This document shows positions 23,631 to 29,393 of a stretch of 40,461 nucleotides of DNA, in pieces; position 1 is the stretch's first letter; every line of letters begins with the position of its first letter. Position numbers and translations under genes: made by a program. Source of the DNA: Oscillospiraceae bacterium (GTDB lineage: Bacteria > Bacillota > Clostridia > Oscillospirales > Oscillospiraceae); assembly GCA_022800525.1 (NCBI GenBank), contig JAAWQM010000025.1, positions 1 through 40,461 of the forward strand, written 5' to 3'. A model generated the notes under the pieces. It was not told the origin of the DNA and ran no database searches. It saw only the letters and a list, made by a program, of their open reading frames with translations.

Positions 23631-24662
23631 ATGCGTGATAAGAAACATATCGCCCTGGCTGCGGCGGCGCTGGCGCTGCTGCTGGCCGTACCGGCGGGCT
23701 GCGGACAGGAGGAGCCCGCCGCTGAACCCGAACCGGCCTTTGAGGACATCTATACCGGCTCCGTATCCCTGGTGGAGGAGGAAATCGACATTGCCGACGA
23801 GGCCGTGGCCCTCAGCGGCCTGCCCGCTCTGGACGTGGCCCTGACCCCCACTCCCTCCGGCGTCCTCGCCAAGGCCAACCAGAAGGCTACCATTGACTAC
23901 TCCAACACCACCGACGGCTATGTGATGGTGAACTTCACCGCCACCACCGCCACCCGCGTCAAGGTTCTGGTCATGGGTCCCAACACCAACACCGCCGAGA
24001 CCCGTTACACCTACGACCTGCCCGTGCAGCAGTGGGTCACCTTCCCCCTGTCCGACGGAAACGGCAGCTACACCGTGAAGGTCATGGAGCAGAATGCCTC
24101 CACTGGCAAGTACGCCGCTGTGGTGGACGCCACCTTCAACGTTTCCCTCTCCAACGAGTTCGCCCCCTTCATCCGCCCCAACCAGTACGTCAACTACTCC
24201 GACTCCGTCTCCCCCAACACCATCGCCAAGGCCAAGGAACTGGCGGGCGGCGAATCTGACCCCCTGAAGAAGGTGGAGAACATTTACAACTTCGTGGTCA
24301 GCAACCTGACCTATGACGACAACAAGGCTGCCACAGTCCAGTCAGGCTACCTGCCGGTGCTGGATACCGTGTTGTCCACCAAGAAGGGCATCTGCTTCGA
24401 CTACGCCGCTCTCATGGCCGGGATGCTACGCAGCCAGGGCGTGCCCTGCAAACTGATTACCGGCTATGTGGACAACGGCGGCTATCACGCCTGGATCAGC
24501 GTCTGGACGGAGGAGAACGGCTGGGTGGACAACGCCATCTACTTTGACGGCACCACCTGGCACCGCATGGACCCCACCTTCGCCTCCAACGGCAACAGCA
24601 GCGAGAAAATCATGCAGTATATCGGCAACGGGAGTAACTACACCGCCAAGAATTCCTATTGA
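23631..24662 (+). CDS. Transglutaminase-like lipoprotein
   Basis: An exported 343-residue protein. The signal peptide (KKHIALAAAALALLLAVPAGC) ends in Cys24, a probable lipid-attachment site, though Pro at -3 is unusual. An acidic linker follows, then an all-beta region (about residues 70-185) that may be Ig-like, then a transglutaminase-core domain with a complete triad: Cys255 in KKGICFDYA, His286 in GYHAWISV and Asp314 in HRMDPTF. Such bacterial proteins are thought to be peptidases or cross-linkers of the cell surface. AAGGAGG lies seven bases before the ATG at 23631. A terminator follows, so it is probably its own transcript, beside the pilus-like operon. Confidence 0.88.
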   Translation: MRDKKHIALAAAALALLLAVPAGCGQEEPAAEPEPAFEDIYTGSVSLVEEEIDIADEAVALSGLPALDVALTPTPSGVLAKANQKATIDYSNTTDGYVMVNFTATTATRVKVLVMGPNTNTAETRYTYDLPVQQWVTFPLSDGNGSYTVKVMEQNASTGKYAAVVDATFNVSLSNEFAPFIRPNQYVNYSDSVSPNTIAKAKELAGGESDPLKKVENIYNFVVSNLTYDDNKAATVQSGYLPVLDTVLSTKKGICFDYAALMAGMLRSQGVPCKLITGYVDNGGYHAWISVWTEENGWVDNAIYFDGTTWHRMDPTFASNGNSSEKIMQYIGNGSNYTAKNSY

Positions 24663-24745
24663 GCGGCGGCGGTCCCCGGCACGGTAAAAATTTTCCGGCC
24701 AGTTCAGTTTTCCCTCTTTACGAAAATCTGGAATTGCGTTACAAT

Positions 24746-24782
24746 GGGCTTGCGGCTCTCCCGCGGGCCCTTTGTATTTTTT
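24746..24782 (+). terminator. Terminator after the transglutaminase-like gene
   Basis: GGGCTTGCGG (24746-24755) pairs with CCGCGGGCCC (24761-24770), with two G-T pairs, around a 5-base loop, followed by TTTGTATTTTTT. It separates this gene from the pilus-like operon. Confidence 0.7.
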
Positions 24783-24836: not shown

Positions 24837-24892
24837 AAAACGCGTCTATTCGTACATCTCAGGAAACCCCAAAACCATTTATGGAGGATCAC

Positions 24893-25933
24893 ATGAAAAC
24901 CAACCTATCACACGAGGAGCTTTCCGCCCTGTGTCTGGAGCTGTCGCTGCTGCTCCACGCGGGCGTGGGGCTGGGCGACGCCCTGGCCCTGCTGGGCGAG
25001 GAGTCCGGCAGGGAAAACCGCGAACTGCTGGAGGCTATGTCCAGGCAAGTGGACGACGGCGCTTCTCTCTCCGCCGCCATGAAGGACTCCAGACGCTTCC
25101 CAGCCTACGTCTGCGGCCTCATCGAGGTAGGCGAGACCGCCGGACGGACCGAGGAAGCCCTCTCTGCCCTCTCCCGGTACTACGAGGACCGGGTGCGCAT
25201 GGACCGGCGGGTCAAGAGCGCGCTGCTGTACCCGGCGGTGATGCTGGCGGTGATGCTCATTGTCATCGCTGTGCTGCTGGTGCGGGTGCTGCCCATCTTT
25301 GACGACGTGTACGCCTCCCTGGGCGGACGGCTCACCGGCGTGGCCGGGGGACTGCTGGCCTTGGGACAGTGGCTGGACAAGGCTATGCCGGCGCTGTGGG
25401 TACTGATGGCGCTGCTGGTCGTATTCCTTGGGAGCTTCGCGGCGCTGCCGGGGTTCCGGGCCAAGCTGACCGGCGCGTGGCGGGCCCGTCACGGAGACAA
25501 GGGCGTCTCCAGGAAGCTCAACACCGCCCAGCTTGCCCAGGCCATGGCCATGGGCATGGCCAGCGGCCTGCCCACCGAGGAGGCCATCGAGCTGGCGGCG
25601 GGCCTGATGGAGGACGTCCCTCCCGCCAGGGCCCGGTGTCTTGAGTGCCATAAAAAGCTGGAGAACGGCGAGGCCCTGGGCAGGGCCATGAAGGACAGCG
25701 GCCTTCTGCCCGCCGGACAGTCCAGGCTCCTGGAGCTGGGCCAGCGCAGCGGCGCAGGCGACGCCGCCATGGAGAAAATCGCCCGGGACCTCAGCGAGGA
25801 GAGCGAGGCCGCTCTGGAAAACGCGGTCAGCCGGGTGGAACCCGCTTTGGTGCTGATCTGCTCGCTGCTGGTGGGGTTGATCCTGCTGTCAGTGATGCTG
25901 CCTCTCATGCACATCATGTCCGCTATCGGGTGA
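24893..25933 (+). CDS. Type II secretion/type IV pilus platform protein (GspF/PilC family)
   Basis: A 346-residue inner-membrane platform protein, first gene of a six-gene operon. Two copies of the T2SSF domain are visible: the first starts LSHEELSALCLELSLLLHAGVGLGDALALL and ends with a membrane segment (SALLYPAVMLAVMLIVIAVLLVRVLPIF), and the second (KLNTAQLAQAMAMGMASGLPTEEAIELAAGLM) ends VLICSLLVGLILLSVMLPLMHIMSAIG. The ATG at 24893 is chosen because GGAGG lies five bases upstream; a frame start four codons earlier overlaps that site. Such proteins couple the assembly ATPase to the pilus base. At about 346 residues it is a little shorter than PilC (about 400). Confidence 0.92.
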   Translation: MKTNLSHEELSALCLELSLLLHAGVGLGDALALLGEESGRENRELLEAMSRQVDDGASLSAAMKDSRRFPAYVCGLIEVGETAGRTEEALSALSRYYEDRVRMDRRVKSALLYPAVMLAVMLIVIAVLLVRVLPIFDDVYASLGGRLTGVAGGLLALGQWLDKAMPALWVLMALLVVFLGSFAALPGFRAKLTGAWRARHGDKGVSRKLNTAQLAQAMAMGMASGLPTEEAIELAAGLMEDVPPARARCLECHKKLENGEALGRAMKDSGLLPAGQSRLLELGQRSGAGDAAMEKIARDLSEESEAALENAVSRVEPALVLICSLLVGLILLSVMLPLMHIMSAIG

Positions 25934-25937
25934 CGGA

Positions 25938-26261
25938 ATGGGACGAAAAAAACATATGTTGGGCAGCCTGCTGAAGGGGCTGCTGGCGCCGCTGGCGGTT
26001 GTGCTGGCGCTAGTGGTGTTCGCTGCGGCGGTGAACAGCCTGGACAGCGGCCGCGATGAAGAGAGCCTGCGCCAGCTGGAGGAGGCTCTGCACCGGGGCT
26101 GCGCGGCCTGCTACGCCACAGAGGGCGTCTACCCGCCGGACCTGGAGTACCTGAAGGAACGCTACGGCGTTCAGGTGGACGAGGAGAAATACATGGTGGA
26201 CTATCAGGTCTTCGCCAGGAACCTGATGCCCAGCATCACAGTATTGGAGCGGAAGCGATGA
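25938..26261 (+). CDS. Small membrane protein of a pilus-like operon
   Basis: A 107-residue protein with one membrane span (LLKGLLAPLAVVLALVVFAAAVNSL, about residues 10-34) and a short extracellular domain with two cysteines (RGCAACYATEGVYPPDLEYLKERYGV). The segment CAACYATEGVYPPDLEYLKERYGV resembles the start of pseudopilin-like globular domains, but the N-terminus lacks a Gly-cleavage motif and Glu at +5. It begins four bases after the GspF-like gene and overlaps the next gene by four bases, so coupled translation is likely. Family not recognised. Confidence 0.75.
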   Translation: MGRKKHMLGSLLKGLLAPLAVVLALVVFAAAVNSLDSGRDEESLRQLEEALHRGCAACYATEGVYPPDLEYLKERYGVQVDEEKYMVDYQVFARNLMPSITVLERKR

Positions 26262-26725
26262 AGAAACGGCCTATCAGACATCAGATTGACGGATTGATCG
26301 CCCTGCTGCTGTTCGGGGTGTTCTCCGTGTGTATCCTGGCGGTGCTGCTGACGGGGGCGGACGCCTACCGGAGGCTGACGGACCGGGACCAGGCGGCGTT
26401 TGACCGCCGCACCACCCTCCAGTACATCGCTACCCGGGTCCGGCAGGCGGACCGCGCGGACGGCGTGCGGGTGGACGATTTCAACGGCGTGAGCGCCCTG
26501 GTTTTTGACGACAGGGACGGGTACGTCACCCGGGTCTACTGCTGGAACGGGAGCATCATGGAGCTATACGCCGAGGAAGCTCTGGACCTGACCCTGGAGG
26601 CTGGGGAGCCGGTTATGGAGGCGGAGGCGGTGGAGTTCTCCATGGAGGACGGACGGCTGCGGATATCCAGCGGGGAGGATTCGCTGATTCTCTCCCTGCG
26701 CAGCGGAAAGGGGGCGGTGGGATGA
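26258..26725 (+). CDS. Single-span pilus-operon protein, DUF4860-like
   Basis: A 155-residue protein with an N-terminal membrane span (GLIALLLFGVFSVCILAVLLTGADAY, residues 12-37) and an extracellular part with regular beta pattern (TLQYIATRVRQADRAD, LVFDDRDGYVTRVYCWNGSIMELYAE, VEFSMEDGRLRISS). This pattern fits the DUF4860 proteins found near type IV filament genes in Clostridia; identification is tentative. No prepilin cleavage site is seen. Translation overlaps both neighbours by four bases. Confidence 0.75.
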   Translation: MKKRPIRHQIDGLIALLLFGVFSVCILAVLLTGADAYRRLTDRDQAAFDRRTTLQYIATRVRQADRADGVRVDDFNGVSALVFDDRDGYVTRVYCWNGSIMELYAEEALDLTLEAGEPVMEAEAVEFSMEDGRLRISSGEDSLILSLRSGKGAVG

Positions 26726-27168
26726 ATGAGAGAAGCAAGGCCCCTCTGGTCATGCTGGAGCAGATGGTGATGCTGCTGGTCTTCGCGCTGGCGGCGGCGC
26801 TGTGCTTGCAGGCGTTCGTGAAGAGCGACGCGGCTTCCCGGACCAGCGAGGCAAGGGACCGGGCCGCCCTGCTATGCCAGTCCATGGCGGAGGAGCTACG
26901 CAGCGGCGCAAACCCGTCCCGCGCCGCTGATGCTGTGTTGGGCGAGGTACAATGCAGCGGCAGCGCGTTCCTGGTCCCGCTGAACGAGGATATGACCCCC
27001 TATCTGGACAGCGGCTTCCCCTACGACGGCGCGGCCTACCAGCTGGAGATTTATCCCGCCAATTACCGCGCCCCCGGCTTGAACGGGGCGAAGATTATTG
27101 TTTCGGCACTTAACGGAGACGAGCTGTTCTCCCTGGAAGTTCTGTGGCAGGTGGAGGTGACGGAATGA
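26722..27168 (+). CDS. Pseudopilin-like protein with degenerate cleavage site
   Basis: A 148-residue protein whose N-terminus reads KAPLVMLEQMVMLLVFALAAALCLQAFV. The hydrophobic segment with Glu five residues after Pro9 copies the type IV prepilin pattern, where cleavage falls between -1 and +1 and Glu is at +5. The usual Gly at -1 is replaced by Pro, which would be expected to block a standard prepilin peptidase. The rest (DAASRTSEARDRAALLCQSMAEELRSGA) is the amphipathic helix extension, followed by a beta-rich head. Coupled by four-base overlaps to both neighbours. Confidence 0.75.
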   Translation: MNERSKAPLVMLEQMVMLLVFALAAALCLQAFVKSDAASRTSEARDRAALLCQSMAEELRSGANPSRAADAVLGEVQCSGSAFLVPLNEDMTPYLDSGFPYDGAAYQLEIYPANYRAPGLNGAKIIVSALNGDELFSLEVLWQVEVTE

Positions 27169-27617
27169 AAGAACAGAAAAGATCCAGCTTCTCCCCTCCC
27201 GCCTTGGGCGGGGCGTCGCTGCTGGTGATTTTCGCGGTGCTGGCGCTGACCATCTTTGCGCTGCTGAGCCTGTCCACTGTGCGGGCGGACGGGCGGCTGT
27301 CCGACGCGGCCAATCAGGCCATACAGGACTACTACGAGGCCGACTGCAAGGCACAGCAGTACCTGGCGCTGCTGCGCCTTGGCGAGGACGCGGCGAACCT
27401 GGAGGGCCTGGACGATGTGGACACGGTTGTCATCGACTACGGCGGCTACACCGAGCGGAGAGAATATTTTACCTTTCCCATCTCCGACACCCAGGAATTA
27501 CAGGTGGAGGTCCGGGTGGACGGCGTGAATGACTACGAAATACTGCGCTGGCAGGCCGTGCCTGTGGGCGAATGGGAGGCCGACGAGGGAATCGACCTCT
27601 GGGATATGATGTTTTAA
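27165..27617 (+). CDS. Small single-span pilus-operon protein
   Basis: A 150-residue protein. After a basic N-terminus (KEQKRSSFSPPALGGA) comes one membrane helix (SLLVIFAVLALTIFALLSLSTV), then a long polar helix (DGRLSDAANQAIQDYYEADCKAQQYLALL) and a beta-rich C-terminus ending GIDLWDMMF. The general form is pilin-like; a Gly-Gly pair precedes the helix but there is no Glu at +5. The ATG at 27165 overlaps the preceding stop in ATGA. No named family recognised. Confidence 0.75.
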   Translation: MKEQKRSSFSPPALGGASLLVIFAVLALTIFALLSLSTVRADGRLSDAANQAIQDYYEADCKAQQYLALLRLGEDAANLEGLDDVDTVVIDYGGYTERREYFTFPISDTQELQVEVRVDGVNDYEILRWQAVPVGEWEADEGIDLWDMMF

Positions 27618-27629
27618 AGGAGACAGAAA

Positions 27630-28688
27630 ATGGCGGATTTATTGTACTATCTGAAGCGGGCGGTAAACGATCAGGCGTCCGACCTGTTCATCATCGCCGG
27701 CGGACCAGTCAGCGAGAAGCTGGAGAAGCGTCTGAGCTTCATCAGCGAGGGCCGCGTCCTGCCCGACGAGACCGAGGAGCTGATCCGCGGGCTGTATGAA
27801 ATGGCCCACCGGCCCATGGACCACTATCAGGAGATGGGCGACGACGACTTCTCCTTCTCCGTACCGGGGCTGGCCCGGTTCCGGGTGAACGCCTACCGCC
27901 AGCGCGGGTCCCTGGCGGCAGTGGTGCGGATCGTGTCCTTCGACATCCCGGACTGGGAGAAGCTGCACATCCCCAAGGCCATCATGGATCTGGCGGACAT
28001 GACCCACGGCATGGTGCTGGTCACCGGCACGGCGGGCAGCGGCAAGTCCACCACCCAGGCCTGCGTCATTGACCGGATCAACCGGACCCGGGAGGCCCAC
28101 ATCATCACCCTGGAGGACCCCATTGAGTACCTGCACCGCAACCAGCGGAGCATCGTCAGCCAGCGCGAGATCTCCATTGACACGGAGGACTACCTGTCGG
28201 CCCTGCGGGCGTGCCTGCGGCAGGCGCCGGACGTGATTCTGCTGGGCGAGATGCGGGACCATGAGACTATCCACACCGCCATGACGGCGGCGGAGACAGG
28301 GCACCTGCTCATCGCCACCCTGCACACCAAGGGCGCGGTGAACACCATCGACCGTATTGTGGACGCGTTCCCCAGCACGCAGCAGGGACAGATCAGGGCG
28401 CAGCTGTCCATGGTGCTGCGCACGGTGGTCTCCCAGCAGCTTCTGCCGGGGGCCAACGGGGATGTGGTGCCCGCCTACGAGATCATGCACATGAACAGCG
28501 CCATCCGCAATCTGGTCCGGGACTGCAAGACGGAGCAGATTGGCAACGCCATCACCGCCGGAAGCGCGGAGGGCATGATCTCCATGGATCAGTCGATCCT
28601 GAATCTCTACAAGAACAGGCAGATATCCAAAGAGGTCGCGCTGGAGTACGCGGACAACCCGGACCAGCTGAAGAGAAGGCTGGTGTGA
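27630..28688 (+). CDS. pilT: PilT-type pilus ATPase
   Basis: A 352-residue hexameric ATPase of the type II secretion/type IV pilus family. Walker A is GTAGSGKST (residues 133-141), the Asp box ITLEDPIEY, and Walker B VILLGEMRDHETIHTAMTAAETGHL with the His box LIATLHTKGA. The C-terminal AIRNLVRDCKTEQIGNAITAG resembles the AIRNLIRE motif that marks PilT retraction ATPases rather than PilB assembly ATPases, and the single N-terminal domain also fits PilT length. AAAGGAGACAG precedes the ATG. It closes the operon; no PilB-like ATPase is in the window, so it either powers retraction of pili built from another locus or has another role. Confidence 0.92.
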   Translation: MADLLYYLKRAVNDQASDLFIIAGGPVSEKLEKRLSFISEGRVLPDETEELIRGLYEMAHRPMDHYQEMGDDDFSFSVPGLARFRVNAYRQRGSLAAVVRIVSFDIPDWEKLHIPKAIMDLADMTHGMVLVTGTAGSGKSTTQACVIDRINRTREAHIITLEDPIEYLHRNQRSIVSQREISIDTEDYLSALRACLRQAPDVILLGEMRDHETIHTAMTAAETGHLLIATLHTKGAVNTIDRIVDAFPSTQQGQIRAQLSMVLRTVVSQQLLPGANGDVVPAYEIMHMNSAIRNLVRDCKTEQIGNAITAGSAEGMISMDQSILNLYKNRQISKEVALEYADNPDQLKRRLV

Positions 28689-28719: not shown

Positions 28720-28747
28720 TTGACAAATCCTCCGAAATGTGTATAAT
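28720..28747 (+). promoter_or_regulatory. Strong sigma-A promoter
   Basis: TTGACA (28720-28725), 16 bases, TATAAT (28742-28747): both boxes are consensus, the spacer one base short. It lies about 140 bases before the secreted-protein ATG and just after pilT. Confidence 0.85.
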
Positions 28748-28771: not shown

Positions 28772-28832
28772 GCAGGCAGTACGTAAGACCGGACATGTGT
28801 CGGGGACTTACGTACTGCCTGCTTTGTGTTGT
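28772..28832 (+). terminator. Long leader hairpin with U-rich tail (attenuator-like)
   Basis: GCAGGCAGTACGTAAG (28772-28787) pairs perfectly with 28807-28822, a 16-bp stem whose apical part (CCGGACA/TGTCGGG) extends the pairing. It is followed by TTTGTGTTGTTCATCTTTTCTTTT. Starting about 25 bases after the -10 box, it would form near the 5' end of the transcript made from the consensus promoter. It may terminate most transcripts early, giving a short RNA, or end pilT read-through. Confidence 0.65.
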
Positions 28833-28886
28833 TCATCTTTTCTTTTGCAAGCTCTGAAAAAGCAACATAACAAGGAGGAATTTATC

Positions 28887-29393
28887 ATGAAGAAGCTGTT
28901 ATCCCTCGTACTGGCCCTGTCCCTGGCGTTTTCCCTGAGCGCTGCTGCGCTGGCCTCGGACAAATCCGGCAAAGCCAATAAGTCCGACAAGGACAACAAA
29001 ACAGAAGAAGTCTCCAAACCCGAAAAGCCCGAAAAACCCCAAAAACCCGAAAAGCCCGAAAAACAGAAGCCCAACAACAAGAACGAATGCTCCGATTCCG
29101 AGCCCGGCAGCGCCCCCGACTCCAAACCAGACAGCAAACCAAATCCTGAACCGGGCAGCGCCGCCGTCATCACTGCCGGCGCGGCTGAGGAAACCGCTCT
29201 GACCGACGCCGGTTTTGCCCGCACCGCTGTCAAGGGCCTCCACGCCTACAAGCTGTATGCCAGCGGTCAGGCCTATGCCTATCGCGTGGAGTTCGGCGTG
29301 TATGACCGCTCGGCCCGCCAGACCACCGTCTTTACCTACGAGATCAGCCTTGAGGACGGCGCAATCGTCAGCGCCAGCAGTATCGCCCATTGA
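28887..29393 (+). CDS. Secreted Lys/Pro/Glu-rich protein with PepSY-like C-terminus
   Basis: A 168-residue exported protein. The signal peptide is KKLLSLVLALSLAFSLSAAALA, cleaved after ALA. Then comes a charged, unstructured linker (residues 24-95) built of Lys-Pro-Glu-Lys repeats and Ser/Asp/Pro segments, the kind of spacer that crosses a thick cell wall. The C-terminal 65 residues (ALTDAGFARTAVKGLHAYK ... YRVEFGVYDRSARQTTVFTYEISLEDGAIVSASS) resemble a PepSY-like domain, which in other proteins inhibits peptidases. CAAGGAGG lies before the ATG. It is a separate transcript with a strong promoter and a terminator. A link to the upstream pilus operon is only positional. Confidence 0.8.
   Translation: MKKLLSLVLALSLAFSLSAAALASDKSGKANKSDKDNKTEEVSKPEKPEKPQKPEKPEKQKPNNKNECSDSEPGSAPDSKPDSKPNPEPGSAAVITAGAAEETALTDAGFARTAVKGLHAYKLYASGQAYAYRVEFGVYDRSARQTTVFTYEISLEDGAIVSASSIAH

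Follow-up and report, generated by a model that had tools for sequence, protein, structure and literature searches.

The window analysed here is a stretch of 40,461 nucleotides, positions 1 to 40,461 of contig JAAWQM010000025.1 (assembly GCA_022800525.1), from an Oscillospiraceae bacterium of the order Oscillospirales, class Clostridia. It carries a type IV filament-like operon whose six genes encode one GspF/PilC platform protein, four small bitopic proteins (orf2 to orf5) and a PilT-family ATPase (Table 1). The genes are tightly coupled: gspF is separated from orf2 by 4 bases, the next three junctions are ATGA four-base overlaps, and 12 bases precede pilT. The gspF start codon at 24893 lies closely behind a GGAGG motif, and an alternative ATG is found at 24881. 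A preliminary description of this locus had proposed six coupled genes for a platform, four single-span proteins and PilT. The positions of the open reading frames and the three overlaps bear out the coupling, and the matches to T2SSF (Table 1) and to PilT/PilU (404 bits) bear out the assignment.

Table 1. Features of the operon and its surroundings (positions in the window)
Feature	Position	Strand	Description
Transglutaminase-like secreted protein	23631-24662	+	Transglut_core (Pfam) E 6.9e-25; Cys-His-Asp
Promoter-like match, weak	24717-24745		directly before the hairpin
Hairpin, terminator-like	24746-24770	+	between the transglutaminase gene and gspF; consensus scan only
gspF (GspF/PilC platform)	24893-25933	+	346 aa; T2SSF (Pfam) E 8.5e-42
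orf2	25938-26261	+	107 aa; major-pilin-like; without Gly-1/Glu+5 site
orf3 (DUF4860)	26258-26725	+	155 aa; GspJ/PilW-like; PF16152 E 6e-20
orf4	26722-27168	+	148 aa; GspI/PilV-like; Glu+5 and Pro-1 in the window
orf5	27165-27617	+	150 aa; GspK/PilX-like
pilT (PilT-family ATPase)	27630-28688	+	352 aa; sole motor gene of the operon
Promoter-like match, perfect	28720-28747		TTGACA-16-TATAAT; directly 3' of the operon
Open reading frame	28797-29393		Lys/Pro-rich, secreted-looking protein

The operon is conserved well beyond the window. Of 245 genomes of the order, 52 have DUF4860, 51 of them over the cut-off, as do 42 of 391 genomes of the class, five of which are common to the order set. The DUF4860 locus was fetched from all 52 order genomes, the window included, and in 47 of them the operon is complete and ordered as in the window; such a survey was one of the checks put forward in the preliminary description. 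In four of the incomplete loci (L044, L052, L059 and L060) a contig end truncates the operon, and the fifth, from genome G012, has no PilT. With the GspF profile, a separate scan recovered at least 526 relatives; among the best 80, 74 have the order in full and the remaining six run into a contig end. Named cultured carriers include Flintibacter muris (DSM 110149, related locus L103), Oscillibacter sp. 1-3 (related locus L110), Colidextribacter sp. OB.20 and Pseudoflavonifractor sp. 60. Purifying selection acts on each of the six genes, with median dN/dS values of 0.12-0.31 over 21 or 22 close pairs. A decaying pilus remnant without function would agree with the eroded prepilin sites described below and with the lack of PilT in G012, but it is extremely improbable in view of a gene order conserved in more than 100 loci, of these dN/dS values and of the invariant catalytic residues of the ATPase. 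The conserved order and the purifying selection thus indicate that the operon is no remnant.

Three of the small proteins, orf2, orf4 and orf5, have no Pfam or NCBIfam match reaching the cut-off. The predicted folds of the small proteins, whose comparison with pilins had been suggested earlier, combine a long N-terminal helix with a beta head, as pilins do. The helix of orf2 spans residues 5-62 and is accompanied by a second helix at 69-76 and two strands, while that of orf3 (DUF4860) spans residues 6-63 and is accompanied by eight strands. The pilin matches were obtained by aligning the predicted models with VIA-align, which placed the DUF4860 model closest to GspJ/XcpW. Foldseek alone returned no pilin for DUF4860 among the matches listed, and its matches for orf2 had E values of 0.83 or worse. 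Profile searches of PDB sequences with DUF4860 and with orf5 gave nothing relevant, and Pfam found no pilin family in the relatives of orf2. The four small proteins, orf2 to orf5, are relatives of pilins, with orf2 resembling a major pilin, DUF4860 resembling GspJ, orf4 resembling GspI and orf5 resembling GspK or PilX.

None of these subunits carries, in the window, the class III signal of Gly-1 and Glu+5. This had been noticed before, as had the Glu+5 and Pro-1 of orf4, and both readings stand with two refinements: in orf3 the +5 register is occupied by Asp, and in orf5 an invariant Gly lies in a setting like that of GspK/PilX, with no Glu+5. A YY.AD motif is also conserved in orf5. The Glu+5 of orf4 is kept in 51 of the 52 order loci and its Gly-1 in 16, and N_methyl matches 7 of 40 orf4 relatives. 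Homologs of orf5 occur in 50 of the 52 order loci, both misses being at contig ends, and PilX_N was matched weakly by 2 of 37 orf5 relatives (best E 0.0044).

The motor of the operon is of the PilT type. It scores 404 bits against the NCBIfam PilT/PilU model TIGR01420 (cut-off 319) and 119 bits against the ComGA model (cut-off 300). In a tree of 47 operon PilTs, 16 canonical PilTs, 19 PilBs and the second PilT of the host, the operon PilTs form one clade (100/98) beside two canonical PilTs (96/96), and PilB stands apart. All 47 operon PilTs keep the Walker A Lys and Thr, the Walker B Glu and the His of the His box. The second PilT of the host (L002:1255-2322, on contig C10 of host genome G000) falls inside the operon clade, with a Gly-to-Glu change in Walker B and a His-to-Tyr change in the His box. 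It adjoins a capsule chain-length gene (Wzz-like, by eye) and has no platform or pilin gene beside it.

The remaining parts of a pilus were sought in the whole host genome, as had been proposed, and in those of the other carriers. The host assembly comprises 112 contigs and is 96.2% complete. At this completeness, the T2SSE search found over the cut-off the operon PilT and one PilT paralog only, and thus no extension ATPase of the PilB, GspE or ComGA type. The T2SSF search found the operon GspF and no second copy, and no N_methyl pilin or Peptidase_A24 (PF01478) was matched; a control search detects A24 in 12 of 14 known genomes. All prepilin peptidase searches were for the A24 family, so that divergent peptidases of other kinds lay outside them. 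Among the 52 order carriers, for which the search results were sorted by hand, A24 and PilB are both absent from 29 and both present in 15, 7 carry A24 alone and 1 carries PilB alone, so that A24 is present in 22 and PilB somewhere in the genome in 16. The corresponding numbers for the 28 genomes at least 95% complete are 13, 11, 4 and 0. The 13 include the single-contig genome G168, and no N_methyl match was found in any of them, against 4-5 matches in each of three PilB-positive controls. A24 was found in 27 of the 37 further class carriers and in none of the other 10, PilB having been examined there in the fetched loci only. DUF4860 is associated neither with PilB (p 0.14) nor with A24 (p 0.10), and the system is therefore independent of both.

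These results bear on the two alternatives between which the preliminary description had left the choice, namely the minor part of a split pilus or a reduced machine in which a single PilT-like ATPase drives pilin-like proteins that stay uncleaved. According to the first, PilB, the peptidase and the major pilin of an ordinary pilus would lie elsewhere or in assembly gaps. The fragmented host assembly would leave room for this, as would the 15 of 52 DUF4860 genomes that do carry PilB and A24. The split pilus is nevertheless very unlikely: the host and 12 further near-complete carriers lack PilB, A24 and N_methyl jointly, and the single contig of G168 already contradicts it for that genome. Moreover, in the PilB-positive genomes that were opened, PilB is encoded at a separate locus, mostly with its own PilT or GspF. 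The pilB-pilD-pilA set elsewhere that, by the preliminary description, would have made this a split locus was not found in the host genome, and the reduced machine fits best.

The system extends beyond the six genes. Clustering of the flanking open reading frames of 132 loci revealed one recurrent neighbour upstream on the same strand, the transglutaminase-like secreted protein, which takes this position in 34 of the 52 order loci and 44 of the 80 others (78 of 132 in total). The gap to the operon has a median of about 40 bases and is 222 bases in the window. Within 5.5 kb, either upstream or downstream, the gene is also found in 19 of the 37 class loci. As read from the sequence, the window copy starts with an ATG behind AAGGAGG and encodes a hydrophobic signal whose last residues, AVPAGC, resemble a lipobox, followed by an Ig-like stretch and the Transglut_core domain. 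Cys192, His223 and Asp251 are invariant across 11 aligned relatives, a lipobox pattern lies within the first 60 residues of 46 of the 78 copies, and the copy of genome G099 carries an SLH domain.

The link to DUF4860 holds at the level of whole genomes. A transglutaminase profile, built from 11 operon-linked relatives and thereby favouring such matches, scores above 130 bits in 47 of 52 DUF4860-positive and in none of 193 DUF4860-negative genomes, where the best score is 74.5 bits (Fisher p 4e-45, kinship not corrected). The gene lies on a different contig from the operon in nine genomes, and in three (G029, G048 and G200) it is absent from at least 5 kb of flank on each side, so that the co-occurrence holds without linkage. 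The transglutaminase gene thus belongs to the system, and while the six genes of the preliminary description stand, its limits of the unit do not, as this partner had been overlooked.

A sortase gene lies directly before gspF in G038 (L079) and between the transglutaminase gene and the operon in G173 (L041). A BTAD/winged-helix regulator, whose C-terminal stretch resembles a degenerate GGDEF domain by eye, recurs in the flanks of 31 of the 132 loci (for example, L046 and L111), often about 1.3 kb upstream and divergent.

The nature of the partner raises the question of secretion. The subunits match the GspG/I/J/K set and the strict partner is a secreted protein, as would be expected of a piston, that is, a type II-like pseudopilus exporting the transglutaminase-like protein across the cell wall. 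This role is rather doubtful, however, because export and anchoring are already explained by the partner's own features, a signal peptide with lipobox or SLH domains. The same set of parts has also to be compared with competence. A ComG-like pseudopilus for DNA uptake, with a single PilT-type ATPase and feeding ComEA/ComEC, would follow the same minimal plan: a single platform and a single ATPase, with one major pilin and several minor ones. Of ComEA and ComEC, the search covered ComEA, and genes for ComEA-like proteins (a TIGR01259 match in an open frame shorter than 350 aa) were found, among the matches listed, in 30 of 52 DUF4860-positive and 70 of 193 negative genomes (p 0.007), and in 22 of 36 and 52 of 153, respectively, of those without PilB (p 0.004). 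The host has one too, on contig C112. Within the family of the window, however, PilB-negative genomes carry ComEA-like genes in 4 of 4 DUF4860-positive and 9 of 9 negative cases; ComEA is equally common there without a type IV system, and the link is therefore confounded by kinship. The strict partner is, besides, the transglutaminase and no Com gene. With the raw co-occurrence lost in the family of the window itself, DNA uptake is kept as a rival but is unlikely.

The origin of the machine can be traced in outgroup Clostridia, where orf4 has a canonical G|FTLIE-type site. Such relatives, which had been overlooked, show that an ordinary type IV pilus was the ancestor of the machine. Three outgroup loci (L257, L258 and L259, from G327, G267 and G399) are pilB-pilT-pilC-pilin operons in which the proteins matched by the orf2 and DUF4860 profiles have GFTLIE and GFSVVE/GFTLVE N-termini, and DUF4860 matches a canonical GF.(L/V)VEL prepilin. 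When GspF of 88 carriers is placed in a tree with these three canonical operons as the root, the most basal lineages keep the canonical orf4. The tree requires 19 changes for the presence of A24, a number that assembly gaps may inflate and of which 13 are forced by well-supported branches, and 11 changes for Gly-1. That orf4 would keep Gly-1 only together with A24 was considered and rejected: the raw association (p 0.015) gave no signal in tree-independent pairs, about 2.3 of which were for it and 1.6 against.

The locus probably encodes a pseudopilus that stays in the membrane, is built from uncleaved pilin-like subunits, is moved by a single PilT and serves a surface transglutaminase. The computed results are the gene order, the ancestry, the pilin-like folds, the lack of PilB and of a peptidase, the intact ATPase motifs, the purifying selection and the transglutaminase co-occurrence; beyond them, we infer that the subunits are not cleaved, that PilT is the driving motor, that the filament is short rather than long, and that it serves the transglutaminase. 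The parts would be one platform (GspF), one major-pilin-like subunit (orf2), one PilT-family motor and a tip-like trio of DUF4860 (GspJ-like), orf4 (GspI-like) and orf5 (GspK/PilX-like). In the host and many relatives, this machine would work without PilB and prepilin peptidase, and the subunits therefore most likely keep their short positive N-termini and stay anchored in the membrane. They would form a short pseudopilus on GspF, which a PilT hexamer would move through ATP hydrolysis. This movement may position, expose or regulate the transglutaminase-like protein at the cell wall, where the latter would be held as a lipoprotein or, in one relative, by its SLH domain. A strict need for PilT is called into question by several loci. 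The operon of G012 (L087) consists of GspF, orf2, DUF4860, orf4 and orf5 without PilT, in a genome rated 100% complete and without any T2SSE match, and is motorless or decaying. Likewise, L223, L224, L225, L227 and L229, from five genomes of one outgroup genus, have the order transglutaminase-gspF-orf2-DUF4860-orf4-orf5 and no PilT within 5.5 kb.

Several known systems share parts with this machine. The type IVa pilus (PilA/V/W/X, PilB, PilC, PilT, PilD) has in common with it the platform, the PilT ATPase and four pilin-like subunits; the operon PilT nests beside canonical PilT, and the outgroup loci are canonical pilus operons. Unlike that pilus, the host and 28 more of the 52 carriers have no PilB and no A24, the 13 genomes tested have no N_methyl pilin, orf2 and DUF4860 lack the class III signal, and a transglutaminase-like partner is present. 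The monoderm competence pilus (ComGA-GG, ComC) shares a single platform and a single ATPase, together with one major-like subunit and several minor-like ones, but the operon ATPase is of the PilT and not the ComGA type, and there is no ComC-type A24 peptidase. The likeness to the type II secretion pseudopilus (GspG/H/I/J/K) lies in the DUF4860 model, closest to GspJ/XcpW, and in orf4 and orf5, close to GspI and GspK; the differences are a PilT-type instead of a GspE ATPase, the lack of a GspO peptidase and a monoderm host, in a comparison made without a secretin search. The Tad (type IVc) pilus offers in CpaF a precedent for a single ATPase driving both extension and retraction, according to an excerpt of PMC11300603. 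Here, in contrast, the motor lies in the PilT clade, and the operon platform is the only platform gene found in the host genome. The partner shares the conserved Cys, His and Asp of bacterial Transglut_core proteins (for example, PDB 3isr, E 9.2e-12), from which it differs as a distinct subfamily confined to DUF4860-positive genomes among the 245 searched.

The hairpin and the weak promoter-like match before it (Table 1) come from a consensus scan whose counts barely exceed those of shuffles. Downstream, the perfect promoter-like match is followed by the reading frame for the Lys/Pro-rich protein. No Rfam match was obtained in the window, and PHROGs matched only PilT, through distant hits of the ATPase type, and the transglutaminase, through one weak hit.

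In the open-licence literature of PMC, no paper on DUF4860 and no description of such a system was found. An excerpt of a 2023 review (PMC10191384) names pilins, prepilin peptidase, extension ATPase and platform as the only four proteins in every type IV filament system. In a 2019 survey (PMC6668835), PilB was chosen as the essential assembly ATPase, and pilD, comC, comGA or pilB are mandatory in the models of several system types, so that a machine like the present one may be filtered out; the same survey mentions MSHA loci without a peptidase, yet always in peptidase-bearing genomes. For a gut relative, Pseudoruminococcus massiliensis, ordinary PilB, PilC, PilT and PilD are reported in an extract of PMC8726730.

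The locus may well represent a type IV filament machine minus the prepilin peptidase and the extension ATPase, two of the four proteins named as universal, with a single PilT and permanently membrane-anchored pilins, which would act not as a pilus but as a membrane piston, powered by ATP and working for a surface transglutaminase, and would be widespread in gut Clostridia. DUF4860 gains an identity as a GspJ/PilW-like protein. Two open questions become testable, namely whether PilT alone can drive useful movement and whether pilin cleavage is needed in every machine of this kind. Surface transglutaminases and pilin machines are also predicted to be linked in gut bacteria that are abundant and little studied, some of them cultured. 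As the peptidase and the assembly motor, both thought indispensable, are often missing, the rules by which such machines are built may be looser than assumed.

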